Source of the DNA: an uncultured Dehalococcoidia bacterium
GTDB lineage: Bacteria > Chloroflexota > Dehalococcoidia > Lucifugimonadales > G958296245
NCBI GenBank assembly: GCA_958296245.1
Contig: OY282458.1
Coordinates: forward strand, 806,001 to 870,000
Length of the DNA stretch: 64,000 nt
Direction: 5' to 3'
The position numbers and the translations under genes were made by a program. The notes beneath the pieces were generated by a model. It made no database searches, was not told the origin of the DNA, and was given only the letters and a program-made list of their open reading frames with translations. Positions within the stretch are counted from its first letter, which is position 1. Each line of letters opens with the position of its first letter. This document shows positions 1 to 22,400 of the stretch, in pieces.

Positions 1-1002
1 CGGGGTCGGATCGCCGGACCGGCTGACCCCTCTGAGCTCCGGGTGGCGGTTGTAGAACGAATCGCCAACGCTGAGGTAGTCCTGCGGCGGCGGGCTGCGG
101 AAGTTGGACACCCGGTACCCGGCGTGAAACTCCAGACCGATCTTGTGGGCGTAGTCGATGGCGGTGCGGAACGGGTCGATCCCCTGCTCGCGGAAGGCAC
201 GCCAACTCTCGCCGACGAAGCGCTCCCCCGGGCGGCTGAAGTCGCCCACGTGCTCGTAGGTGTGCATCCTCCCTATCTTGGTGGAGTACTGGAGCATGTC
301 CCCGCCGCCCGCTTCCCAGTAGAGGCGCGAGAAGTCCGAGTCCTCCAGGGGCGCAATGTCTCTGCACAACTCCTCCGCCGTCGTTGGCCTGTAGGCGAAC
401 ATGAGCGACCAGGCGTCGTTATGGGCAAAGAGGCGCCCGGTATCCGTGCGGCGGCGGTCCGCCTCCACCGCTTCGACTTCGCCGGCGGAGAGAGGCGTAA
501 GCTTGACGTACGCCACCCTGGCGTTCGTACACAGATACGAACCGGGCTCGTCGCCGGGGGCAGTCCTATTCCCCGCCTGACCGAGTACGATGTCCTGGCC
601 GGTCAGGTCGCCGACTTTCCAGAACAGCTCATGGACGATCGCGCCGCGCTCCTCCTGGGGCGGCAACGATAGCAAGCTGGACTGCTCGTCGCCGCTGAGC
701 CTCGCCAGCACGGAGACCGGCTCGTTGAGCAGACCATGCCTGACGTAGGCGCCTATCGATATGGCGTGATAGCCGGAGACCCCAACGGGGCAGACCACTT
801 CGGGCGCCGCTGTTTCGGGGCCGGCCGTAAGCATTGTGCCCGAGACCCCGTCCGCCTCGTAGTCCATGAGCCGCCAGTGTCGACGGCGCGGCTCTCGGGA
901 CAGGGCGGCGTTGGGCCGGCACCGGCTCATGTCCGATATGAAGAGGGGTTCGCCCCCAAACCTCTGGTCTACCGGCAGGTCAACCATGTCGCTTCCGCAC
1001 AT
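1..1002 (-). CDS. Glycosidase-like (probable TIM-barrel) protein, C-terminus cut by window edge
   Basis: An open frame on the minus strand runs without a stop from about 1002 to the left edge, so only the first ~334 residues are present. The first ATG at 1002 (protein begins MCGSDMVDLP) is chosen because no earlier start is convincing; an AAGGA lies about 16 nt upstream. The N-terminal ~180 residues look like a beta-rich domain. The rest contains IDPFRTAIDYAHKIGLEFH and later YNRHPELRG, the kind of wording seen in GHL10-like and related hypothetical glycoside hydrolases, where a helix ends in a strand of a TIM barrel. No catalytic carboxylates can be assigned from the part that is visible. 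It is transcribed away from the giant gene. The frame is convincing; the family assignment is only a resemblance. Confidence 0.6.
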   Translation of the reverse strand, partial: MCGSDMVDLPVDQRFGGEPLFISDMSRCRPNAALSREPRRRHWRLMDYEADGVSGTMLTAGPETAAPEVVCPVGVSGYHAISIGAYVRHGLLNEPVSVLARLSGDEQSSLLSLPPQEERGAIVHELFWKVGDLTGQDIVLGQAGNRTAPGDEPGSYLCTNARVAYVKLTPLSAGEVEAVEADRRRTDTGRLFAHNDAWSLMFAYRPTTAEELCRDIAPLEDSDFSRLYWEAGGGDMLQYSTKIGRMHTYEHVGDFSRPGERFVGESWRAFREQGIDPFRTAIDYAHKIGLEFHAGYRVSNFRSPPPQDYLSVGDSFYNRHPELRGVSRSGDPTP

Positions 1003-1062
1003 GATAACGCAAGATCCGTCCTTTTTGGGCGCCCATTGATCGATTTTGTGTAACCGTCCCGG

Positions 1063-1320: not shown

Positions 1321-1374
1321 ACGGGTACGGGTACGGGTACGGGTACGGGTACGGGTACGGGTACGGGTACGGGG
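1321..1374 (+). repeat. Hexanucleotide tandem repeat (ACGGGT)8 plus one variant unit
   Basis: Eight perfect ACGGGT units are followed by ACGGGG, ending 1 bp before the -35 hexamer at 1376. The tract is intergenic, so a gain or loss of units would not shift a frame but would change the spacing between the promoter and upstream sites in 6-bp steps. Confidence 0.95.
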
Positions 1375-1375
1375 A

Positions 1376-1405
1376 TTGAAAACGCGAGGTTCCGGCGAGT
1401 AGAAT
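1376..1405 (+). promoter_or_regulatory. Sigma-70-type promoter of the giant surface-protein gene
   Basis: TTGAAA (1376-1381) and TAGAAT (1400-1405) are separated by 18 bp. The predicted transcription start is near 1412, giving a ~60-nt 5' UTR before the ATG at 1472. The same -10 (TAGAAT) is found at the marR promoter. The 469-bp gap 1003-1471 otherwise holds only the repeats listed. Confidence 0.6.
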
Positions 1406-1471
1406 ACCCACGTATTGAAGAGTTGAAATTGCGGATGGCGTCACGTGCATGTACCTAGGGGTACTCTGAAA

Positions 1472-4400
1472 ATGGGCGGGCATCGCCGTCTTAATTGGAA
1501 AATGGCCGCGGCGGGGTTGCTGGCGGTTGTGTTGGCGTTTGTGTCCGCGGACGGGGGGCGCGCGCAGACGGCCACCGAGCCGGACAAGGTAACCGACCTG
1601 ACCGCAGCCGCGGACGCAACCAACGGCGCTACGCAGATCAACCTGTCTTGGAGCACGCCCTCCGACGGCGGGTCTCCCTTGGCCGAATACGAGCTCCGGC
1701 GCAAGACCGGGTCAACCAGCTACGTGCTGGTGTCGGCGAACATTGGGGGAAGCGCGACGAGCTACTCGGACACGGGGCTGACGCCCGGCACTACGTACAC
1801 CTACGTCATCCGCGCCGTCAACGCCGAAGGCGAAGGGCAGTGGTCGACCGACGCCTCCGCGTCGACGGACGCAACCCCGCCCGCCGCCGTGTCGGACCTG
1901 GCGGCAACCGCCACAAGCGCGACCACGATGGGCCTGACGTGGACCGCGCCCAACTCGCACGGAGCCAACATCAGCGGCTACACCCTCCAGCGCAAGGCTG
2001 GCTCCGGGAGTTACGCGGCCGTATCGACGACCATAACGGGCACCGCAACCAGCTATTCGGACACGGGCCTGACGCCCGGCACTGCGTACACGTACCAGAT
2101 TCGCGCCGTGAACTCCGAGGGCGACGCGGGGTGGTCGAACGCCGCATCCGCAACGACGCAGGCCGCCCAGCTTCCGTCGGCGGTAACGGACCTGATGGCA
2201 TCCACCACAAGCGCGACTGAGATCGACCTGGAGTGGACCGCGCCCGCCGACGGCGGCTCCCCCATCACCCGCTACACCCTCCAGCGCAAGGCCGGCTCCG
2301 GGAACTACGAGGACGTATCGTCGGCCATAGGGTCAAGCGCATCCAGCTACTCGGACTCCGGCCTCACCTACTTAACGACGTACACCTACCACATCCGCGC
2401 CGCCAACTCCGCAGGCAACGGGGTCTGGTCCAACGAGGCGTCGGCAACGACGGACGCGGTGGCCCTTGCACAATGCAACCCATTTGGGGCCGGTTGTTTT
2501 GAACCCGACCCCATAGCAGACCTCTCCGCAACCAAGGACGCAACTAACGGCGCAAGGGAGATAGACCTGGCCTGGTCCAGGCCCCGCAACGGGGGGGCTC
2601 CCATCCTCCGCTACACCCTCCAGCGCCAGGCCGGCTCCGGGAGCTTCGGGGCCGTATCGTCGAGCATAGCCGCCGGCGCGACCACCTACTCGGACTCGAG
2701 CCTCACGCCCGCAACGACGTATACGTACCGCATCCGCGCCGAGAACTCCGTGGGCGGCGCGTCGTGGTCGAACACACCCTCCGCAACGACGGACGACGCC
2801 CCGCCGGACGCCGTGGCTGACCTGGCGGCAGCCAGGGACGGGACCAACGGCCGGACGGAGATTGACCTGACGTGGAGCACGCCGGCCGCCAACGGAGAAG
2901 ACATCACGGACTACACGCTTCAGCGCAAGAGCGGGGGCGGGAGTTACGCGGACATTGCGACTTCGACCATCGAGGTCGGCGATACGAGCTATTCGGACAC
3001 GGGCCTCATGCCCGGCACTGCGTACACGTACCGGATTCGGGCCACGAACTCCGAGGGCGACGCGGGGTGGTCGAACGATGCGAGCGCAACGACGCAGGCC
3101 GCCGCCGCGCCCGCGCGCATAACGGACCTGTCCGCAACCTCCCCAAGCTCGCACCAGGTCAACCTGACGTGGACCGCGCCCGCCGCCAACGGCGCAGCCA
3201 TCACGAGCTACACGCTTCAGCGCAAGGTCGGTTCCGGGAGCTACACGGAGGTATCGTCGACCATAGCGGCAAGCGAGACGAGCTACTCGGACACGGGCCT
3301 CACGCCCGAGGTGACGTACACGTACCAGATTCGCGCCGTGAACAGCGTCGGCAACGCGGTGTGGTCGAACGAAGACTCCGCAACGACGGTCCGAGCGGAG
3401 AGGCCGAGCGTGCCGTTCGACGTGCGGGGCGAACAGCTTGGCGGGAGCGCCACGGCGGGGCCGACCGGGACCCGACTGAGATGGGAGAGAGCTAACGGCG
3501 ACGATGATCTTTATCAGGCCTTTATTTACGAAAGAGGCAACTGGGACCGGCGGATAGGGGTTATCCTACGACCCTTCCCTCTTGACACATGGGATCTTCA
3601 TCGCTCGAATCTCAATCACGGCACGACGTACCGGTACCGCGTGCGCGCGTTCAGCTACGAAAGCCGCGACGGGCCGTTTGGATACGCCGACATTACTGTG
3701 GGCGCTCCGGCCGCTGGAACGCTCAGCGCTCCCACCGTTAGCAACGCTTCGGTGGTTTTGAGCTGGACGGCGTCGACCAGGGTTTTCGGCAACCCCATCA
3801 CGGGGTTCCGGGTGGAGCGGAGGATAGGCCACACCGGGCCGTGGGACCTGATTACGACCGCGACCTCCACAGCCACTACCTATACGGACGACACGGCGAC
3901 GGGCAACACGACGTACCGGTACCGCATACGCGCGGTGAACTCGGTGGGTGTCGGGGACGCGACGCGGCAGCAGAGCGTGACGCTGGGCGCCGGGCGTCCC
4001 GGCGCACCGACGGGGCTGAGCGCGACCGCTTCCGGGTGGTCGGCTGTAGACCTGACGTGGACCGCGCCCGCCTCCGACGGCGGAGACGACATCACCGGAT
4101 ACACGCTGCATCGCAAGGCCGGCTCCGGGAGCTACGCGACCACGACTACGTCCATAGGGGCAAGCGCGACGAGCTATTCGGACACGGGCCTCACGGCCAA
4201 CACCGCGTACACGTACCGGATACAGGCCGTGAACTCCCACGGCGGCGGCGGGTGGTCGAACGAGGAGAGCGAAACGACGGGCACCCGGGCGCCGGACGCG
4301 GTGTCGGACCTTACGGCGACCGTGGACGCGACCAACGGCGCGACTGAGATAGACCTGTCGTGGACCGCGCCGGTGGACAACGGGTTGGCCATCACGGGCT

Positions 4401-7400
4401 ACACGCTGCAGCGCAAGAGCGGGTCTAGGAGTTACGCGGACGTATCTACGAACATAGCGGCCAGCGCGACCAGCTACTCGGACACGGGCCTCATGCCCAA
4501 CGTTACGTATACGTACCGGATTCAGGCTAGGAACTCCGCCGGCGCCGGGGATTGGTCGAACGAGCTGGACGCGACGACGGACGTCGCCCCGCCCGCGGCC
4601 GTGTCGGACCTGTCGGCAACGAAGGACGGGACCAACAGCTCGACGGAGATAGACCTGTCGTGGACTGCGCCCGAAGACAACGGGCGGGAGATAACGGGCT
4701 ACACGCTTCAGCGCAAGAGCGGGTCCGGGAGTTACGCGAACGTATCTACGAGCATAGCGGCCAGCGCGACCAGCTACTCGGACACGGGCCTCACGCCCGG
4801 GACTACGTACACGTACCAGATTCGGGCCACGAACAGCGTGGGGGACGGGGATTGGTCGAACGAGCCGAGCGCGACGACGGACGCAGTTCCGGACGCCGTG
4901 TCGGACCTGACGGCAACGAAGGACGCGACCAACGGCTCGACGGAGATAGACCTGACGTGGACGGCGCCCGCAGACAACGGCGCCGCCATAACGGGTTACA
5001 CGCTGCAGCGCAAGAGCGGGACCGGGAGCTACGCGGACGTAGATACGAACATAGCGGCCAGCGCGACCAGCTACTCGGACACGGGCCTCACGCCCGGGAC
5101 GAAGTACACCTACCAAATCCGCGCCGCCAACTCCGTGGGGGACGCGGCGTGGTCCAACCAGCCGTCCGCAACCACGGACAAGGCCGCGCCCGCGGCCGTG
5201 TCGGACCTTACGGCAACGAAGGACGCGACCAACGGCTCGACGGAGATAGACCTGTCGTGGACCGCGCCCGCCGACAACGGCGCCGCCATAACGAGCTACA
5301 CCCTCCAGCGCAAGAGCGGTTCCAGGAGCTTCGCGGACATTGCGACTACGACCGCGACCAGCTACTCGGACACGGACCTCGCGCCCGGCACGGAGTACAC
5401 GTACCGCCTGCGGGCCGTTAACTCCGTGGGCGACGGCGCCTGGTCCAACGAACCCAGCGAAACGACGGACGCCATCGCGCCCGCCGCCGTAACGGACCTG
5501 TCGGCAACGAAGGACGCGACCAACGGCGCGAGAGAGATAGACCTGACGTGGACCGCGCCCGCCACCGGCGGCTCCGCTATAACGAGTTACACGCTGCAGC
5601 GCAAGAGCGCCGGGGGCTACGCGAACGTATCTACGGGCATAGCTGGCAGCGCGACCAGCTACTCGGACACGGGCGTTACGCCCGGGACTACGTACACGTA
5701 CCGGATTCGGGCCACGAACTCCGTGGGCGACGCGGGGTGGTCAAATGAAGACAGCGCGACGACGGACACCGCCGCGCCGGACAGGATAACGGACCTGACG
5801 GCAACGAAGGACGCGACCAACGGCAGGACGCAGATCAACTTGTCGTGGACCGCGCCCGCCTCCAACGGGGCATCCATAACGAGTTACACGCTTCAGGTCT
5901 TAAGCACTGATCCACGGTTCCTGACTTGGACGGCGCTGACGGCGCCATCGGCAAGCGCAACGAGCTACTCGCACACGGGCCTCAGGCCCGCAAGCTCGTA
6001 CCAATACCGGATTCGGGCCACGAACTCCGAGGGCGACGCGCCGTGGTCGAACGTACCCCTCAGATCTACGGACACCGCCCCGCCGGACGCCGTAACGGAC
6101 CTGTCGGCAACCAAGAGCGGCGCTAGGAGGGTCAACCTGTCGTGGACCGCGCCTGCCGCCAACGGGGAAGCCATAACGAGTTACACGCTGCATCGCAAGG
6201 TTGGGTCCGGGAGTTACTCGACCACGACCACGTCCATAGCGGGCAGCGCGACCAGTTACGGGGACACGGACGTTACGCCGGGGACGACGTACACGTACCG
6301 GATTCGGGCTGTGAACAGCGTGGGGAGCGCGGGGTGGTCGAACGAAGACAGCGCGACGACGGACAACGCAGCGCCGGACTCCATAACGGACCTGTCGGCA
6401 GCCAGGGACGCGGACAACCCCGCGAGGAAGCTGAACCTGACGTGGACCAAGCCCGCCGCCAACGGGCGTCCGATAACGAGCTACGAACTTCAGGTCATAA
6501 CCAGCGCTGATCCGTTTCCCCTTTGGAGGCCGCTGCCGGCGCCATCAACGGCAACCACAACTTACTCGCACACGGGCCTCACGCCCGGAGCGACGTACTC
6601 CTACCGGATTCGGGCCAGGAACTCCGTCGGCGTCCCGGCGTGGTCCGGGGACAACGTATCCCGCTTTTTGCGGACGGCCTCCCTCCCGCCGGACAGGATA
6701 ACGAACCTTAGGGCGACGAAGGACGCGACCAACGGCGCGAGGGAGATAGACCTGTCGTGGAGCGCGCCCGCCGCCAACGGGGCCAACATCAGCGGCTACA
6801 CGCTGCAGCGCAAGGTTGGATCCGGGAGCTTCACGGACTTATCTACGAACATAGCGGCCAGCGCGACCAGCTATTCGGACGCGGGCCTCACGCCCGGGAC
6901 GACGTACGCGTACCAGATTCGGGCCACGAACTCCGAGGGCGACGCGGATTGGTCGAACGAAGACAGCGAGACGACGGACACGGCAGTACCGGACGCCATA
7001 ACGGACCTTACGGCGACCAAGAGCGGCGCTAGGAGGGTTGACCTGACGTGGAGCACGCCCGCCGCCAACGGCGCCGCCATCAGCGCATACACGCTGCAGC
7101 GCAAGGCGGGGTCCGGGAGTTACGCGGACGTATCGTCGACGATAACGGCAGCCTCGACCAGTTACGCGGACACTGTTACGCCCGGCATGACGTACAAGTA
7201 CCGGATTCGGGCGGTGAACAGCGTCGGCAACGCGGATTGGTCGAACGAGCCGAGCGCGACGACGGACAACGCAGTACCGGACGCCATAACGGACCTTACG
7301 GCGACCCCCACGGCCTCTGATCCGCACCGTTCCGTGGACCTTGTGTTCACCACGCCTGCAAACAATGGAGCTGCCATAGACCGGTACTCGGTTAGGCGGC

Positions 7401-10400
7401 GCTGGGGTACGCCTACCCTGACGCAGTGGAAGCTGGTATCGCCGAGCGATACGGTGGTAGACGGGAGCAAGACCAGCTACACCTGGGACAACCTCGATCC
7501 CAACACTGCGTATAGGTTCGACATCATTCCTCGCAACTCCGTCGGCAACGGCGAGTTGTCCAACGTGGCGAGCGTAACGACGGAGGCGACCGCGGCGCCG
7601 GACGCGATAACGGACCTGGCGGCGACCTCCACGAGCGCGAGGGGGATCGACCTGACGTGGACCGCGCCCGACGCCAACGGAGAACCCATCAGCGGCTACA
7701 CCCTCCAGCGCAAGACCGGCGACGGGAGTTACGCGACCACGACCACGACCATTGAGGGAGGCGATACGAGTTATTCGGACACGGGGCTGACGCCGGCGAC
7801 GAAGTACACGTATCGCCTGCGCGCCAGGAACTCCGTGGGCGCCGGCGGGTGGTCGAACGAGCTGGTCGAGACGACGCCCGCGGCGGTACCGGACGCCGTA
7901 ACGGACCTGTCGGCGACGAAGGACGCGACGAACGGCGCGAGGGAGATTGACCTGTCGTGGAGCGCGCCAGCCGCGAACGGGGCCGCCATCACGGGCTACA
8001 CGCTCCGGCGCATGGAGCCCGGGGTAACTTGGGAGACGGTGGCGGACAGCATCACGACCACTTCGTACTCGGACACGGGCGTGAGGCCGGCGACGGCGTA
8101 CAGTTACTACGTGTACGCCACGAACTCGGTAGGGGACGGTCCGTGGTCCGAGACTGCCAGCGCGACGACGGACGACGCGGCGCCGGACGCGGTGGATGAC
8201 CTGTCGGCGACCTCCATGAGCGCGAGGGAGATTCTCGTGGAGTGGACCCCGCCGGCCGCGAACGGGCAGCCGATAGGGGGCTACACGCTGCAGCGCAGGG
8301 CCGGGGTCGAGGTCTACGAGGACATCGCGACCACGACCATTGCGGCAGGCGCGACGAGTTATTCGGACACGGGGCTGACGCCGGCGACGACGTACACGTA
8401 CCGCCTGCAGGCCAGGAACTCCGTGGGCGCCGGCGGGTGGTCGAACGAGGCGTCCGGAACGACGCACAACGACGCGCCGGACGCGGTGGATGACCTGTCG
8501 GCAACCGCCGCGAGCTCTGACCCGCACCGCGCCGTGGACCTCCAGTGGAGCGCGCCCGCCGCCAACGGAGCCGCCATCGCGAGTTACCGGCTGGAGCGCA
8601 AGGTGGACGGGGGGAGCTACGAGGTTGCGAGCTCGACCCTCGCGGCAGCCGTGACCAACACCGGCTATTCCATTCACACGGACACGGGCCTGACGCCCGG
8701 CACGAAGTACACGTACCGGATTCGGGCGACGAACTCGGTGGGCGACGCGGGGTGGTCGAACGAGCCGATCGCAAGGACGAACGCGGCCCAGGTTCCGTCT
8801 GCCGCAACGCTGTCGGCGGCCAAGGACGGCGCGAGGGCGATCAACCTGTCGTGGGCGGCGCCCGCCGACAACGGGGCGGACATAACGAGTTACACGCTGG
8901 AGCGGAAGAGAGGGTCTGGGAGCTTCGCGCCGGTGTCGTCGACCATAACGGCGACCTCGACCAGCTACAGGGACACGGGCCTCACGCCCTGGGAGACGTA
9001 CACGTACCGGATTCGGGCCGTGAACAGCGTGGGCGACGCGGGGTGGTCGAACGAGCCGAGCGCGACGACGGATCAAGCCCCGCCCGGGCGCGTAACGAAC
9101 CTGGGGGCGACCAAGCTCGGCGCGAGGTCTATCCGCCTGTCGTGGAACACGCCCGCCAACTACGGCCGCAACTTCGCGGGTTACCGGCTGGAGCGCAAGG
9201 CCGGCTCCGGGAGCTGGGAGCTGGCGTCGGATTCCATAGCGGACTTCGCGATAGTCCACACGGACACGGGCCTCACGCCCGGCACGAGGTACACGTACCG
9301 CATACGCGGCAAGAATGCCCTAGGCAACGCGGAGTGGTCGAACGAGCCGAGCGCGACGACGGACACGGCAGTACCGGACACGATAACGGACCTGGCGGCG
9401 ACGAAGGACGCGACGAACGGCGCGACGGAGATCAACCTGACGTGGACGGCGCCCGCCGCCAATGGCGCAGCCATCACCGGATACACGCTCCAGCGCAAGG
9501 CCGGGACCGGGAGCTACGTGGGCGTGTCTCCCGGGCCTCTCGCGGGCGTAACCAGCTACTCGGACGTTGCGCTTGCGACCTCGACGGCGTACACGTACCG
9601 GTTGCGGGCGACGAACAGCGTGGGCGACGCGGGGTGGTCCAACGAGCCGGTCGCGACGACGGACGCGGGCGGCGGCGACGCGCCGAGCGACGGGCCGTTC
9701 GACCTGCGCGGCGAACAGAATGGCGGGAGCGCCACGCTGCCGCCCACCGGGAGCCTGGTGAAATGGGGCGACGCTCCCGGCGCAACGTCGTACCAGTTCC
9801 AGTACTCCACGGACGGCGGGACGACATGGGCGCCCGACCCCCCGTTCGGTTACGGCGCCAGCAGCAAGGAGCATGGACTCGGCAGCACCCATATCACTGC
9901 GGGCACGACGTATTGGTACCGCGTGCGCGGGGTGAACGGCGGCGGGGTAGGGGCGTGGGACACGATTGACATTACGCCGGGCGCTCCGGCGGCGTATTCC
10001 GGGTTCACCGCGGCCGTCAGCGACGCGTCGGTGGCTATAACGTTGGGCACGGCGCCGACCAGGGTTTTCGGCAGCGCCATCACCTCTATCCTGGTGGAGC
10101 GGAGGATAGGCAACACCGGGCCGTGGGAGCGGGTGGCAACCTTGGGCGCGGGAAGCGGGGTCTGGACGGACAGCACGGCGGTGGGCAACACGACCTACGT
10201 GTACCGCGCGCGGGCGGTGAGCGTGGTGGGGGTTGGGGATCCGTCGCCGCAGAAGAGGGTGACGCTGGGTCCTGGTCGTCCCGGCGCTCCGACGGGCTTG
10301 AGCGCGACCGCTTCCACGGCGTCGGGCGTAGACCTGACGTGGACGGCGCCCGACGACAACGGAGGGGCCGCCGTTTCGGGATACGTCCTCGAGCGCTCGG

Positions 10401-13400
10401 CCGGCTCCGGGGCCTACACGGTGGTGTCGTCGGCCATAGCGGCAAGCGCGACCAGCTATGAGGACACGGGCCTCACGCCCTCGACGGCGTACAAGTACCG
10501 CATCCAAGCCGTGAACGCGCACGGGACCAGCGGGTGGTCGGGCGAGGCGTCCGCAACGACGCCCGCCACCTCCAAGCCCGGGCGCATAACGGACCTGGCG
10601 GCAATCCCTGACCCGACCGACGGCGATACTGAGATTCTCCTGGGGTGGACGCCGCCGGCCGCCAACGGCCCCGCCATCACGGGCATAACGCTCGAGCGCA
10701 AGACCGGCTCGGGGAGCTACGAGGTCATCGCGACTTCGACCATACCGACAAGCGCGGTCAACTACGTTGACGAGGGCCTCACGCCGGTGACGGCGTACAC
10801 GTACCGCATGCGGGCCACGAACTCCTTGGGCGACGCGGCGTGGTCGGACGAGGTGAGCGCAACGACGCGGGCCGGCGTTCCGGACGCCATAACGGACCTG
10901 TCGGCAACGCTCTCGTCGTCTGACCCGTACCGCGTCGTGGACCTGTCGTGGACGACGCCGGCGGGCAACGGGGCCAACATCACCGGCTACCGGCTGGAGC
11001 GCAAGGCAGGGTCTGGGAGCTTCACGCTGGTGTCGTCGTCCATAGGGGCGAGCGCGACGAGCTATGAGGACACGGGCCTCACGAACGGCACGACGTACAC
11101 CTACCGCATCCGCGCCGTGAACTCGGCGGGCGACGCGGATTGGTCGAATGAACGGATCGTGATGACGACGGCGGCGGGGGCTCCGGCGACCATAACGGAC
11201 CTTTCGGCGACGAAGGACGCAACCAACGGCGCGAGGGAGGTTAACCTGGCGTGGACGGCGCCCGCCTCCGACGGAGCCGCGATAACGAGATACGAGCTCG
11301 AGCGCAAGGCCGGGTCCGGGAGCTACGCGGTTGCGAGCTCGACGATAGCGGCCAGCGCGACCAGCTACGAGGACACGGGCCTGACGCCGGGGACGACGTA
11401 CACCTACCAGATTCGGGCCGTGAACAGCGTGGGCAACGCGGCGTGGTCGAATGAGCCCGCCGTGACGACGGACAACGCCCCGCCGGACGCCGTAGATGAC
11501 CTGGGCGCAACTGCCTCGACCTCCGACCCGTACCGCACCGTGGAGCTGACGTGGACCGCGCCCGTCGCCAACGGGGCCAACATCACCGGCTATCGGCTGG
11601 AGCGCATGAGCGGGTCCGGGAGCTTCACGCTGGTGTCGTCGTCCATATTGGCGAGCGCGACGAGCTACACGGACACGGGCCTGACGGCAGGGACCTTCTA
11701 TACGTACCGCATCCGCGCCACGAACTCCGTAGGCAACGGCGAGTGGTCGGGCGATTCGGGCGTGACGACGCGGGCCGCCATCGCACCGGACGCCATAACG
11801 GACCTGGCGGCGACTTCCACGAGCGCGAACTCGATTGTCCTGGCGTGGACCGCGCCCGCCGACAACGGGGCCGTCATCAGCAGCTACACAATCGAGCGCA
11901 AGGAGGGGTCCGGGAGCTATGCCGCGTTGTCGAGCGGACCTGGCGCGAGCGCGACCACCTTCACCGACACCGGCCTCACGCCCGCGACACAATACACCTA
12001 CCGCCTGCGGGCTTGGAACTCCGCGGGCGCGGGCGGGTGGTCCAACCAACTCAGCGCAACGACGGACAACGCCGAGCCCGCGCGCATAACGGACCTGTCC
12101 GCAACCGCCGCAAGCGAGACCACGGTCCGCCTGACGTGGACCAAACCCGCCGCCAACGGCGCCGCCATAACGAGTTACACGCTTCAGCGCAAGAGCGGGA
12201 CCGGGAGTTACGCGGACGGAGCGACTATCCTAGGGATAGGGGCAAGCGCGACGAGTTATTCGGACACGGGCCTCGATCCGGCGACGACGTACACGTACCG
12301 CCTGCGGGCAGTCAACTCCGTGGGCGACGCCGCGTGGTCGAACGAAGCGCCCGCAACGACGCCCGCAGCCGGGGCTCCGGACGGCGCGAATGACCTTGCG
12401 GCGACGAAGGACGCAACCAACGGCGAGACGGAGATCGACCTGTCGTGGACGGCGCCCGACGACAACGGGGAGTCGATAACGAGATACGAGCTTCAGCGCA
12501 AGGCCGGGGGGAGCTACACGGACGTATCTACGACGATAGGGGCAAGCGCGACGAGCTATTCGGACACGGGCCTCACGCCCGGGACGACGTACACGTACCG
12601 CCTGCGGGCCGTGAACAGCGTCGGCGACGGGGCGTGGTCGAACGAACCCTCCGAAACGACGGACAACGCCGCGCCCGCCGCCGTGTCGGACTTGGCCGCA
12701 ACCGCCGCAAGCGCGACCTCGATCAACCTTACGTGGACCGCGCCCAATAACCACGGAGAAACCATCACCGGCTACACGCTTCAGCGCAAGAGCGGCTCAG
12801 GGAACTATGCGGACGTATCGACGTCCATAGGGGCCAGCGCAACCAGCTACTCGAACATGGGCCTCACGCCCGCTACGGCATACATGTACCGCATCCGCGC
12901 CGCCAACTCCGAAGGCGACGGCGCATGGTCCAACGCGCCCAGCGCAACGACGGGCAACGCCGCGCCCGCCGCCATAACGGACCTTACGGCAACCAAGGAC
13001 GCAACCAACGGCGCGACGGAGATAGACCTCGCCTGGACCGCGCCCAACAACCACGGTGCCGCCATCACCGGCTACACGCTTCAGCGCAAGAGCGGCTCAG
13101 GGAACTACGCCGACGTTTCACCCGCACCCTCTGCCAGCGCAACCAGCTACTCGGACACGGGCCTAACGCCCAACGTTACGTATACGTACCGCATCCGCGC
13201 CAAGAACTCCGAAGGCGACGCAGAGTGGTCCAACGAAGACGACGAGACGACGGACTTCGCCCCGCCGGACGCCATAACGGACCTTACGGCAACCAAGGAC
13301 GCAACCAACGGCGCGACGCGGATTAACCTGACGTGGAGCACGCCCCCCGACAACGGGCGGGCGATAACGAGCTACACCCTCCAGCGCAAGGCCGGCTCCG

Positions 13401-16400
13401 GGATATACGCCGACGTATCGACGAACATTGGGGCCAGCGCAACCACCACCACGGACAGGAGCCTCACGCCCGCAACGACGTATACGTACCGGATCCGGGC
13501 TGTGAGCAGCGCCGGCGGCGCAGAGTGGTCCAACGAAGACAGCGCGACTACGGACAACGACGTGCCCGCGGACATAACGGACCTTTCGGCAACCAAGGAC
13601 GCAACCAACGGCTCGACGCAGATCAACCTGACGTGGAGCGCGCCCGCCAACCACGGAGAAGCCATCACGGGCTACACGATCCAGCGCATAAGCGATGATC
13701 GACCGATGTGGACGAACCTTCCGGTCGCGGCAAGCGCGACCAGCTACTCGGACACCGGTCTCACGCCCGGACAGGAACACGCGTACAACATTCGGGCCAC
13801 CAACTCCGTAGGCGACGCGGAGTGGTCCAACTCCGCTCTGGCGACGACGGACGCCGCCGCGCCCGCGACCATAACAGACCTTACCGCAACCAAGGACACA
13901 ACCAACGGCGCGACGGAGATTGACCTGGCCTGGACCGCGCCTTTCGGCAACGGCGCCGCCATCAGCGGCTACACGTTGCAGCGCAAGAGCGGCGGAGGGA
14001 ACTACGCGGACGTTGCGACTTCGACCATAGCGGCAGGCGATACCAGCTACTCCGACACCGGCCTCACGCCGGCGACGGAGTACACGTACCGCCTGCGGGC
14101 CGTGAACTCCGTAGGCAACGCGGAGTGGTCGAACGAAGACAGCGAAACGACGGACAACGACGCTCCCGCGCGCATAATGGACCTGTCCGCAACAGCCTCA
14201 AGCGCGAACGACATCCGCCTGACGTGGAGCACGCCCGCCGCCCACGGCGCCGTCATCAACGCCTACGAGCTTCAGCGCAAGGTTGGCGTAGGGAACTACA
14301 CGACCGTTACATCCGGACCTTCTGTGGGCGATACCAGCTTCAGCGACAGCGGCCTCACGCCCAGCACTGCATACACGTACCGCCTGCGGGCTAAGAACTC
14401 CGTCGGCAACGGCGAGTGGTCCAACGAGGCGTCCGACACGACGCCCGCGCCCGGGGCTCCGTCGGGCGCGTCGGACCTTGCGGCAACCAAGGACGCAACC
14501 GACGGCGCGACGGAGATCGACCTTACGTGGAGCACGCCCGCCGACAACGGGTCCCTTATCACCGGCTACACCCTCCAGCGCAAGAGCAGCACAGAGGGCT
14601 ACGCCGACGTGTCGACGGAGATAACGGCAACCTCAACCAGCTACTCGGACACCGACCTCACGCCCGCTACGGCATACACCTACCGCATCCGGGCCGTGAA
14701 CAGCGTCGGCGACGGAGCGTGGTCCAACGAACCCAGCGTAACGACGGACGACGCCGCGCCCGCCGCCGTGGCGCCCCTTGGCGCAACCGCCGTAAGCTCG
14801 ACCTCGATCCGCCTGTCGTGGTCTGCGCCCGCCGCCCACGGAGAGGCCATCACCGGATACATGCTCCAGCGCAAGAGCGGTTCCGGGAACTACGCGAACG
14901 TATCGACGAACATAGGGGGCAGCGCAACCAGCTACACGGACACGGGCCTCACGCCCGCGACGACGTACACCTACCGCATCCGCGCCGCCAACTCCCTCGG
15001 CAACGGACCGTGGTCCAGCGACGCCGGCGCAACGACGAACGACGCAGCGCCCGCCGCCGTGTCGACCCTTACGGCAACCGCGGACGGCGCGACGGAGATA
15101 GACCTTTCGTGGACCGCGCCCGCCAACCACGGAGAAGCCATCACGGGCTACCGCTTGGAGCGCAAGGCCGGCTCCGGCGCCTTCACGCTGGTGTCGTCGA
15201 CCATAGCGGCCGGCGCGACCAGCTACACGGACACCGGCCTCACGCCCGCAACGGCGTACACGTACCGCATCCTCGCCGCCAACTCCATAGGCGACGGAGC
15301 GTGGTCGAACGAAGACAGCGAAACGACGGACAACGCCGAGCCCGCCGCCATATCGGGCTTTACGGCAACCAAGGACGCAACCAACGGCAGGACGCAGATA
15401 AACCTGTCGTGGTCTGCGCCCGCCACCAACGGCGCCTCCATCATCAACTACACCATCCAGCGCAAGGCCGGCTCCGGGAACTACGCGACCGTAGCGACGA
15501 GAGGGGCCAGCGCAATCAGGTACTCCGACACCGGACTCACCCCCGGAACGGCCTACACCTACCGCATCCGCGCCAATAACTCCGTAGGCGCCGGCGCGTG
15601 GTCCAACGAACCGTCCGCAACGACGGACAACGCCAAGCCCGCGCGCATAACGGACCTGTCCGCATCCGCCACAAGCCGGACCGAGGTCCGTCTTACCTGG
15701 ACCACGCCCGCCAACCACGGCTCCGCCATCACCAGCTACCGCCTGGAGCGCAAGACCGGCTCCGGGAACTACGTGCTGCAGGCGTCGTCGCCCATAGCGG
15801 CCGGCGCGACCAGCTACGCGGACACGAGCTCCATCACGGCCAACACTGCATATACCTACCGCCTGCGGGCTGTGAACTCCATCGGTAACGCGGACTGGTC
15901 CAACGAAGCGTCCGACACGACGCCCGCAGCCGGGGCTCCGGCGGGCGCGGCGGACCTTACGGCAAACAAGGACGCAACCAACGGCAGGACGGAGATTGAC
16001 TTAGCTTGGACCGCTCCCGCCGACAACGGCGCCGCCATAACGAGTTACACCCTCCAGCGCAAGGCCGACATGGGGACCTACGCGAACGTATCGACGACCA
16101 TAGGGGGCAGCGCGACCAGCACCACGGACACCGGCCTCACGCCCGGCACTGCATATACCTACCGCCTGCGCGCCGTCAACTCCGTCGGCAACGGCGCATG
16201 GTCCAACGAACCGTCCGCAACGACGGACAACGCCCCGCCCGCGACCATAGCGGGCTTTACGGCAACCACGGACGCAACCAACGGCGCGACGCAGATTGAC
16301 CTCGCCTGGACCGCGCCCAACAACCACGGCGCCGCCATAACGAGCTACACGCTTCAGCGCAAGAGCGGCGGAGGCGTCTACGCGGACGTTTCACCCGCAC

Positions 16401-19400
16401 CCTCTGCCAGCGCAACCAGCTACTCCGACACCGGCCTCACGCCCGCAACGGCGTACACGTACCGCATCCGGGCCGTGAACTCCGTCGGCAACGCGGACTG
16501 GTCCAACGAACCCAGCGCAACGACGGACGACGCCCCGCCCGCGGCCATAGCGGGCTTTACGGCAACCAAGGACGCAACCAACGGCGCGACGGAGATTGAC
16601 CTCGCCTGGACCGCGCCCGCCAACCACGGAGAAGCCATCACCGGCTACACCCTCCAGCGCAAGAGCGGCTCCGGGGTCTACGCGGACGTAGCGACGAACA
16701 TCGCGAGCAGCGCAACCAGCTACTCGGACACGGGCCTCACGCCCGCTACGGCATACACGTACCGGATTCGGGCCGTGAACAGCGTCGGCAACGCGGAGTG
16801 GTCCAACGAACCCAGCGCAACGACGGACAAAGCCGCGCCCGCGGCCGTGTCTACCCTTACGGCAACCAAGGACGGAACCAACGGCGCGACGGAGATAGAC
16901 CTGGCCTGGACCGCGCCCGCCAACCACGGAGCCGCCATCACGGGCTACAGCTTGGAGCGCAAGGCCGGCTCCGGCGCCTTCACGCTGGTGTCGTCGTCCA
17001 TCGGGGCCAGTGACACCAGCTACTCCGACACCGGCCTCACGCCCGCGACGGCGTACACGTACCGCATCCGCGCCACGAACTCCATCGGCGACGGCGCGTG
17101 GTCCAACGAACCCAGCGAAACGACGGACAACGCCGCGCCCGCGGCCGTAACGAACCTTTCGGCAACAGCCGCAAGCTCGGTCGCGATCCGCCTGTCGTGG
17201 TCTGCGCCCGCCACCAACGGCGCCGCCATCATCAACTACACCCTCCAGCGCAAGGCCGGCTCCGGGAACTACGCGACCGTAGCGACGAGACATGCCAGCG
17301 CAATCAGGTACTCCGACACCGGACTCACCCCCGGAACGGAGTACACCTACCGCATCCGCGCCACGAACTCCGTAGGCGCCGGCGGATGGTCCAGCGAAGC
17401 ATCCGCAACGACGAACGCCGCCGCGCCCGCGCGCATAACGGACCTCACGGCAACCAAGGACGCGACCAACGGCGCGACGGAGATTGACCTGTCGTGGACC
17501 GCGCCCGCCACCAACGGAGCCGCCATCAGTAGCTACACTCTTCATGCCAAGACGGGATCCGCCCCCTACGCGCTGGTGTCGTCGAACATAGCGGCCGGCG
17601 CAACCAGCTACTCGGACACGGGCCTCACGCCCGCTACGGCATACACGTACCAGATTCAGGCTGTGAACAGCGTCGGCGCCGGCGCATGGTCGAACGAAGA
17701 CAGCGATACGACGGACAACGCCGAGCCCGCCGCCGTGGCGGACCTGTCGGCAACCAAGGACGCAACCAACGGCGCGACGGAGATTGACCTTTCGTGGACC
17801 GCGCCCGCCGCCAACGGAGCCGCCATCAGCAGCTACACCCTCCAGCGCAAGAGCGGCTCAGGCGTCTACACGAACGTATCGACGACCATAGCGGCCAGCG
17901 CAACCAGCTACTCGGACACGGGCCTCATGCCCGCAACGACATACACGTACCAGATTCGGGCTGTGAACAGCGTCGGCAACGCGGACTGGTCCAACGAACC
18001 CAGCGAAACGACGGACGCCCTCGCGCCCTCGGCCGTGTCGGACCTGTCGGCAACCGCCCCAGGCTCGACTGCCATCGACCTGTCGTGGACCGCGCCCGCC
18101 GCCAACGGCGCCGCCATCAGTAGCTACACGCTCCAGCGCCAGGCCGGCTCCGGGACCTACACGGACGTATCGACGTCCATAGCGGCCGGCGCAACCAGCT
18201 ACTCGGACAGCAGCCTCACGCCCGCAACGGCGTACAAGTACCGGATTCGGGCCGTGAACAGCGTGGGCAACGCGGGATGGTCGAACGAGGCCAGCGCAAC
18301 GACGAACAACGCCGTGCCCGCCACAGTGGGGGACCTGGCGGCCGCGCCCGCGTCCGCTAACCCGTACACCTCCGTGGCCCTGACCTGGACCGCGCCCGCC
18401 GCCAACGGCGCCAACATCACCAGCTACACCCTTCAGCGCAAGACCGGCGGAGGGAGCTACGCGAACGTAGCGACGAACATCGCCGCCGGCGCAACCAGCT
18501 ACACGGACACGGGCCGTACGTCCGGGACGGCATACACGTACCAGATTCGGGCCGTGAACAGTGTCGGCGAGGCGTCGTGGTCGAACCAAGCTACCGTAAC
18601 GACGACGGCCGTCGGCGCGCCCGATGCCATAACGGACCTGTCCGCAACCAAGGACGCAACCAACGGCGCGACGGAGATCGACCTGTCGTGGACCACGCCC
18701 GACAACAACGGGAATCCGATACTGAGCTACACCCTCCAGCGCAAGGCCGGCTCCGGGACCTATACGGACGTATCAACGTCCATCGCGGCCGGCGCAACCA
18801 CCTACTCGGACGCCGGCCTCACGCCCGCGACGGCGTACACGTACCGCCTGCAGGCTAAGAACACCACCGGCGCCGCCCCGTGGTCGAACACACCGAGCGT
18901 AACGACGGACACCGCCCCGCCCGCAGCCGTGGCGAATCTGGCCGCCGGCGCCGTGTCCTCAGACCCATACCGCTCCGCGGCCCTGACGTGGACCGCGCCC
19001 GCCGCCAACGGGGCCAACATCACCGGCTACCGGCTGGAGCGCAAGGCCGGTTCCGGCTCCTTTACGCTGGTGTCGTCGTCCATCGCCGCCGGCGCAACCA
19101 GCTACTCGGACACCGGCCTCACGCCCGGCACGACGTACACGTACCGCATCCGCGCCGTGAACTCCGTGGGCAGCGGCGCGTGGTCCAACGAACCCACCTA
19201 CACGACGACGGCCACCTCCGCGCCGGACGCCGTGTCGGACCTGGCGGCCGCGGGCGGGTCCTCTGACCCGTACCGCACCGCGTCCTTGACGTGGACCGCG
19301 CCCGCCGCCAACGGAGCATCTATCACCGGCTACCGCCTGGAACGCAAGGCCGGTTCCGGCTCCTTCGGGCTGGTGTCGTCGTCCATCGCCGCCGGCGCAA

Positions 19401-22400
19401 CCAGCTACACTGACACGGGCCTCACGCCCGGCACGACGTACACGTACCGCATCCGCGCCGTGAACTCCGCCGGCAACGCGATGTGGTCCAACACAGACGA
19501 CGTAATAATGGTTAGCACCACCGCGCCCGACACCATAACGGACCTCTCCGCAACCAAGGACGGGACCAACGGCGCGACGGAAATCGACCTGGCGTGGTCC
19601 ACGCCCAACGCCAACGGAGAAGCCATCACCGGCTACCGCCTGGAGCGCAAGGCCGGTTCCGGGAACTACGGGCTGCTGTCGTCTTCCATCGCGGTCGGCG
19701 CAACAACCTACACGGACACGGGCCTCACGCCCGCGACACAATACACCTACCGCCTGCGGGCTACGAACTCCGTCGGCGACTCGGCATGGTCCAACGAACC
19801 CAGCGACACGACGGACAACGCCGCGCCCGCGCGCATAACGGACCTGGCCGCAACCGCCGCAAGCGCGAACGCGGTCAGCCTCACGTGGACCGCGCCCGCC
19901 GCCCACGGAGCCGCCATCAACCAGTACTCGGTCGAGCGCAAGGTAGGGTCCGGGAGCTATGTTGCACTGTCATCCGCACCTAGCGCATCCGCAACCAGCT
20001 ACACGGACTTCAGCGCCACGCCCGCAACGACATACACGTACCGCCTGCGGGCTTGGAACACCGAGGGCGGAGGCGATTGGTCCAACGGGGCGCTCGCCAC
20101 GACGCCCGCAGCCGGGGCTCCGGACGCCGTGGCGGGCCTTACGGCAACCAAGGACGCCACCAACGGCGGGACGGAGATTGACCTGGCTTGGACCGCGCCC
20201 GCCACCAACGGCGCCGCCATCACCGGGTACACGCTTCAGCGCAAGGCCGGCTCAGGGACCTACACGAACGTATCGACGTCCATCGCGGCAGGCGCAACCA
20301 GCTACTCGGACACCGGCCTGACGCCCGGCACTGCATATACGTACCGCATCCGCGCCGCCAGTTCCGCGGGCAGCGGCGCATGGTCCAACGAACCGTCCGC
20401 AACGACGGACAACGCCGCGCCCGCCGCCGTGTCTAACCTTACGGCAACCAAGGACGCAACCAACGGCGCGAGGGGGATTGACCTCGCCTGGACCGCGCCC
20501 AACAACCACGGCGCCGCCATCAGCGCCTACCGGCTGGAGCGCAAGGTAGGCTCCGGCGCCTTCGCGCTGCTGTCGTCTTCCATCGCGGTCAGCACAACCA
20601 GCTACACGGACACGGGCCTCACGCCCGCAACGGCATACACGTACCGCATCCGCGCCACCAACTCCGTAGGCGACGCGGCGTGGTCCAACGAGGCCAGCGC
20701 AACGACGGACGCCGCCCCGCCGGACGCCGTGACGGGCCTTACGGCAACCACGGACGCAACCAACGGCGCGAGGGAGATAGACCTATCGTGGACCGCGCCC
20801 GCCGCCAACGGCGCCGCCATCAGCGGCTACCGGCTGGAGCGCAAGGCCGGCTCCGGCTCCTACGGGCTGGTGTCGTCGACCATAGGGGCCGGCGCGACCA
20901 GCTACTCGGACACGGGCCTCACGCCCGCAACGGCGTACACGTACCGCATCCGCGCCGTGAACTCCGCAGGCAACGCGGCGTGGTCGAACGATCCCAACGT
21001 AACGACGGACAACGCCGCGCCCGCACGCATAACGGGCCTGTCCGCAACCGCCGCAAGCTCGACCGCGATGCGCCTGTCGTGGACCGCGCCCGCCGCCCAC
21101 GGAGCCGCCATCAGCGGCTACCGGCTGGAGCGCAAGGCGGGCTCCGGCCCCTACGGGCTGGTGTCGTCGACCATAGGGGCAGGCGCAACCAGCTACACGG
21201 ACACGGGCCTCACTCCCGGGACTAGATACACGTACCGCATTCGCGCCGCCAACTCCGTCGGCGACGCGGCGTGGTCCAACGAGCCCAGCAGAACGGCGCG
21301 GGACCCCGCCGCGCCCGCGGCCATAACGAACCTGTCGGCAACCAGGGACGCAACCAACGGCGCGAGGGAGATCGACCTTACGTGGACCGCGCCCGACGAC
21401 AACGGAGCCGCCATCACTGGCTACACGCTCCAGCGTAGGGCAGGCTCCGGGAGCTACGCGAACGTATCGACGTCCATAGCGGCAGGCGCAACCAGCTACA
21501 CGGACGCGGGCCTCACGCCCGGGACTAGATACACGTACCGCATCCGCGCCGCCAACTCCATCGGCGACGGCGCATGGTCCAACACACCCAGCGCAACGAC
21601 GCGGGCGCCCGTCGCCGACACGCCGCCTCCGACGGACGACGGCGGCGGTGGCGGCGACGGCGGCGGTGGCGGCGGCGGTGGCGGTGGAGGCGGCTCTGCC
21701 GACCCTCCCGCGGCGAACGTGATCGCCTTGGAGCCGGCCGCGATGTCGTTCACCGTCCGTCAGGGTGGCGGCGGCCTACCGCCTAAGGCGTTTGCGGTGT
21801 GGAACACCAAGTCCGAAGACATGAACTTCAGCGTGCTCAAGAACGTGCGCTGGTTCACCGCAACGCTCTCGCAGGGCAGCTCGAACGGCCCCGACGACCG
21901 GGTCGAGGGGTCCGTGTCCTTGTCCGCGAACGCGGCGGGCCTGGAGGTGGGCACGTACACCGGGCTGCTGCGGATAGCGTCGGACACCGCCGAGAACTCG
22001 CCGCAGAGGGTGACGGTAACGCTGACTGTGCTCGGCCCCGCAACGGCCTGGGACGTTGTGAGGCCCGGCCGGAGCGCGCAGATAGAAACGCCGGACGGCT
22101 CCGTGCAACTGACGGTGCCTGCGGACGCCGCGTCCGCAGGGGTCGAGATCAGGATGAAGAGGCTGGACGTCCCGACGCTGGCCGCGCCGCCCGCCGAGAG
22201 CGGCCCCGTCACGCTGGCCGTGGAACTGGACACGTTCGACGCGGACACCGGCCTACTGAAGCCCACGCAGTACTCGTCCGCCGTGAGCCTGCGCTTCCGC
22301 CTGCCGGATGACGAAGGCGCGGCGTGCGGAGACGGTCGCGCGCGCGTGTACCGCGTGGCGGACGAAGGCGGCTGGACGCTGCTCACGCACCGCTGCGAGA

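Follow-up and report, generated by a model that had tools for sequence, protein, structure and literature searches.

The stretch of DNA analysed here (the window, 64,000 nucleotides) covers bases 806001-870000 of genome G000, the single 2.69-Mb contig of an uncultured Dehalococcoidia bacterium that is the sole representative of its family in the genome set. Near its left end lies a giant gene on the forward strand (1472..23224) encoding a protein of 7,250 aa, a length consistent with a start at the ATG at 1472, with which the start codons of the homologues align. By inspection, the protein consists of tens of FN3 domains, a glycine-rich linker, a stalk rich in proline and threonine (TPTPAPTA) and a C-terminal transmembrane helix, the apparent membrane-spanning segment having approximate bounds of 23126..23206 (forward strand). 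A Pfam scan of the protein ends found 20 FN3 stretches in the first 2,185 aa and 15 in the last 2,074 aa. The N-terminal segment (1472..1567, forward strand) is signal-peptide-like, is common to the homologues with the start codon aligned, and judged from its sequence is an apparent signal peptide.

Upstream of the giant gene is a divergent gene on the reverse strand (1..1003) with a likely ATG near 1001-1003, for which no Pfam match was found when the open reading frame at 1-1107 was scanned. Two dispersed repeats are also seen in this region. The one at 1149-1220 (GTAACTGTTCAGACTTCGTGAGGTCCTTTTCGACTGGCGTAGCCCCGATAAAGCAGACGTC...), about 70 bp long, has around 20 copies in 464 kb of the genome (the window plus a 400-kb sample, also used for background rates of arrays) and probably more than 100 copies in the whole genome. 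The other, at 1056-1122, contains a GCGGGCGTCTCGCCCGC hairpin, is flanked by direct repeats of CGATTTGTGTAACCGT-like sequence and has more than 10 matches in the genome.

The hexamer array and the putative promoter region

Between the divergent genes is an array of hexamers (1321..1374, forward strand) comprising eight perfect ACGGGT units at 1321-1368 and a variant unit, ACGGGG, at 1369-1374, after which a single A separates it from a promoter-like pair; TRF reports 8.8 copies at 1321-1373, with 100% matches over 53 bp. The preliminary description, which had eight units plus a variant ending 1 bp before TTGAAA-N18-TAGAAT, agrees with both the sequence and TRF. Its placement of the tract in an intergenic region before a 7,250-aa surface protein is likewise sustained, as the array lies beside a divergently transcribed neighbour at about 100 bp from an ATG that aligns with homologue starts, and as both a signal peptide and a C-terminal helix are apparent. 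The array is unlikely in length and rare in sequence: period-6 runs reach at most 19 bp in 30 Markov copies of the window, as opposed to the 53 bp observed, so that a chance origin was rejected. Three or more consecutive ACGGGT units are found nowhere else in the 2.69-Mb genome, and a run of four is absent from the 246 other genomes of the order among the 247 searched. A DNA match to the array in genome G039 was discarded as an unrelated coding GT-repeat region, and Rfam and tRNA scans at the array locus found nothing. Within the 464 kb, a single further array is comparable in length, a heptamer, (CTGGTAT)10 followed by (GGTATCC)5, at G000:C1:162955-163057 (L102:12955-13057); it sits between divergent genes with no evident surface gene beside it.

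The promoter-like pair itself (1376..1405, forward strand) consists of TTGAAA at 1376-1381 and TAGAAT at 1400-1405 with a spacing of 18 nt, and is a weak match. One site of this type occurs in 700 bp where shuffled sequences give 0.3, a value near chance level, and neither a conserved -35/-10 across the six giant FN3 genes nor any homologue counterpart at the position of 1376-1405 was found. Another candidate is the 21-nt element TTGAAATTGCGGATGGCGTCA (1423..1443, forward strand), which is shared with the homologues in G014, G098 and one of the two in G022 (G022a), lies just upstream of the gene and is almost absent elsewhere in five genomes. It could be part of a core promoter, an operator or a leader element, and possibly it is this element that serves as promoter or operator.

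Unstable tracts upstream of giant genes in relatives

When the proteins of 250 genomes from the order were searched for N-terminal homologues of the FN3 giant, five close ones emerged, two of them in G022 and one each in G010 (OY282442.1, from an uncultured Dehalococcoidia bacterium), G098 and G014, all from genomes of 1-6 contigs that represent four other families. Upstream of the gene, a G20 tract ends 57 bp before the ATG in G010, a C24 tract ends 55 bp before the ATG in G098, stopping a few bases before the 21-nt element, and a G16 tract lies about 306 bp upstream of the start adopted for the G014 homologue; both G022 copies (two of the five) have no upstream tract. The context of the G16 tract (L061, L062) is itself repetitive, being flanked by near-identical copies of about 150 bp. 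At the DNA level the gene in G010 is about 81-84% identical to that in G000, and the match stops at window position 1487, the regions upstream being unrelated. The ACGGGT hexamer is therefore not conserved upstream of the homologues, whereas hypermutable tracts are, in three of five. The presence of distinct repeats at comparable positions, their flanks being unrelated, points to separate origins of the tracts and to selection for an unstable tract at that place.

A comparable arrangement is seen for another giant gene, which is preceded by four of the poly-G/C tracts in the five genomes surveyed below. Members of this second family are about 80% identical among genomes, and the two that were scanned contain He_PIG domains; the search of the order gave 12 loci, 11 of them intact. 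The intact frames range from 1,335 to 9,728 aa, mostly 6,700-9,700 aa, with 10 of the 11 exceeding 6,600 aa. Tracts of C14-C21 stand upstream in six of the intact loci, five of them at roughly -70 to -105; the G000 member (L124, G000:C1:2563469-2571469), a He_PIG protein of 9,004 aa, has C14 at -186 to -200. In G005 (L191:1089-1474), the gene for a giant of 7,142 aa is preceded by 19.3 perfect copies of a 20-bp unit, the last of which stops 26 bp short of the ATG; this unit is similar to a leader motif found in the family. Altogether poly-C or another repeat is found upstream of seven of the 11 intact members and no upstream tract in the other four. The occurrence of C14-C21 in some members and a 20-bp array in another indicates that in this family as well the type of repeat changes at a retained position.

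Poly-G/C tracts and genes that differ in frame

Taken together, five genomes of 1-6 contigs hold 45 G or C tracts of at least 13. Inspection of neighbouring genes together with Pfam places many of these within or next to genes that encode family-2 glycosyltransferases (L123, L144), an epimerase (L133) and UDP-glucose dehydrogenases (L125, and L155 by sequence likeness); others are in or beside genes for DNA methylases (L122, L137, L141, L145), LRR surface proteins (L126, L146) and uncharacterised membrane proteins, and several are unassigned or lie in doubtful frames. This set of glycan, methylase and surface-protein genes is what a phasome usually contains. Eight of the 45 tracts stand no more than about 310 bp upstream of an open reading frame of at least 1,200 aa, against about 0.24 expected (P ~2e-10), where both limits, of distance and of size, were chosen once the data had been inspected and the expectation assumes 40 giant genes per genome, extrapolated from the 400-kb sample.

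Of 247 genomes of the order, 78 contain poly-G tracts, some of them at contig ends of fragmented assemblies, where they may be artefacts; such contig-end tracts were left out of the analysis. An assembly artefact as the general source of poly-G was rejected in view of the 1-6-contig genomes, the unique flanks in both orientations and the differing lengths in duplicates. In G014, a duplicated membrane-protein gene (L143, L150) is 92% identical over 2.2 kb with the same flanks, and carries G17 in one copy and G21 in the other. The frame with G17 is open (667 aa), whereas that with G21 shifts and stops, the remainder being open in another frame, so that by its sequence the duplicate is a natural ON/OFF pair. 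A tandem pair in G022, with near-identical flanks, carries G14 and G16. Together, the two pairs indicate that tract length changes in this lineage. A separate observation concerns a 7.9-kb stretch (L128/L159) that is 100% identical between G010 and C6, a small contig of G022; misbinning of C6 is probable.

A probable promoter-proximal switch and its alternatives

Among the marks of a contingency locus, the hexamer array displays a long, perfect and slippage-prone tract, a place in a regulatory region (intergenic and upstream of the giant gene), and a target that is a surface structure, the FN3 giant with its apparent signal peptide and C-terminal anchor; a DNA methylase would be the other customary target. 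The array is likely to be a promoter-proximal simple-sequence contingency locus and one of a lineage-wide set. A repeat of almost nine units before a giant gene, with different unstable repeats in relatives, probably constitutes a random expression switch, and the hexamer would most likely be a promoter-type member of what may be a repertoire of simple-repeat phase variation in Dehalococcoidia. The preliminary description had proposed a phase-variable promoter with the repeat abutting its -35 box. The idea of a phase-variable, promoter-proximal repeat has gained strongly, on comparative grounds, from the other hypermutable tracts before homologous giants and from the open and broken pair in G014. 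Its finer points are conjectural, namely that the tract adjoins the true -35, that each unit has an effect by rotating the upstream DNA through half a turn, and that the number of copies varies within this species; the -35/-10 pair is near chance level and unconserved.

From these arrangements we infer slippage of the array, an effect on transcription and a benefit. Slipped-strand mispairing at replication would add or remove 6-bp units, and each change in unit number would shift both the spacing and the rotation (6 bp being about 206 degrees of helix) of upstream DNA relative to a promoter or operator downstream of the array, which could be the pair at 1376-1405 or the conserved element at 1423-1443. 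Sister cells would then carry differing amounts of the giant FN3 surface protein. The array would be part of a lineage-wide group of loci, mostly poly-G/C, located at the genes for giant surface proteins, for enzymes of surface glycans and for DNA methylases, and the benefit would be a surface layer that is varied against phage, host or neighbours.

An unlikely alternative, though the least remote of those considered, is that the array lies in a transcribed leader, with the promoter upstream of 1321 and unit number altering the structure, stability or translation of the 5' UTR. Repeats in the 5' UTR act in this way in some pathogens, as in uspA2 of Moraxella, and this reading would suit both the weak, unconserved -35/-10 downstream of the array and the tracts of the homologues, which likewise fall between other sequence and the ATG. 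However, a scan of 900-1600 scored no promoter-like site upstream of the array, and the conserved 21-nt element sits downstream of it. The possibility that the array is a neutral microsatellite, produced by slippage and without effect on the gene, appears more doubtful still: although the repeat is not conserved, some homologues have no tract at all and the heptamer, the other long array in G000, has no evident surface gene, different kinds of repeat recur before homologous giants in separate families and eight of the 45 tracts stand before giant genes.

The least probable of these explanations, and a very improbable one, is that a G-quadruplex formed by the array starts gene conversion among the FN3 repeats in the manner of gonococcal pilE, giving antigenic variation instead of expression switching. 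Its appeal is that (GGGTAC)n matches the pattern G3N3G3N3G3N3G3, as do the poly-G/poly-C tracts, and that the giant gene offers tens of similar FN3 units. Against it, such motifs are common (69 in the 464 kb), in G005 the corresponding place is taken by a 20-bp array whose unit is different and less G-rich, and the tracts of methylase and sugar genes need no role for a G-quadruplex. A pilE-type system combines a G-quadruplex with silent donor copies; here the motif is present, but a search of the G000 genome for another gene with the same N-terminus gave none, and all the FN3 DNA matches from a genome search fall inside the giant gene.

A promoter-proximal contingency locus has several known counterparts. 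In sabA, an adhesin gene of Helicobacter pylori, a T-tract adjoins the -35, and slippage shifts the core promoter relative to upstream elements, acting as a rheostat (PMC4081817). The likeness is a simple repeat beside a -35-like site at a surface-protein gene, with the putative -35 here being near chance level and unconserved; the difference is that sabA has a homopolymer with measured effects, whereas a hexamer (poly-G/C in relatives) and a putative promoter are found here. In nadA of Neisseria meningitidis, operators lie on either side of a TAAA tract, and the distance between them depends on the number of repeats (PMC2791445). This too is a multi-base array in the promoter region of a surface-protein gene, but nadA has the repressor NadR and IHF, while the present locus has a candidate site only, the 21-nt conserved element. 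At the level of genomes, the Campylobacter phasomes described with PhasomeIt likewise comprise many hypermutable simple-repeat loci per genome with predicted phase variation (PMC6321876); those considered here differ in belonging to uncultured Chloroflexota, in the many tracts that are intergenic before giant surface genes and in including one open and broken pair.

Simple-repeat phase variation has been described mostly in host-adapted pathogens, for example proteobacteria and mycoplasmas. No papers on phase variation or slippage in Chloroflexi, Chloroflexota or Dehalococcoidia were found in PubMed Central, a search whose scope leaves aside most subscription papers; the mechanism is already known, and its presence in this lineage appears to be undescribed. 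For the whole order, we consider moderately probable a complete phase-variation repertoire in which giant surface proteins (5,000-9,700 aa) are promoter-switched by whichever hypermutable repeat arose, be it a hexamer, poly-G, poly-C or a 20-bp array, and frameshifts do the switching in the genes for glycan enzymes and DNA methylases, so that the type of repeat would turn over and the position of the switch would be kept by selection. If true, such a turnover of repeat types among homologous genes would be good comparative evidence for selection on mutability itself. Should this hold across uncultured Chloroflexota families, their cells would face strong and fluctuating selection on the surface, for example from phage or from an animal host, perhaps a sponge or some other animal if such genomes in general are a guide.
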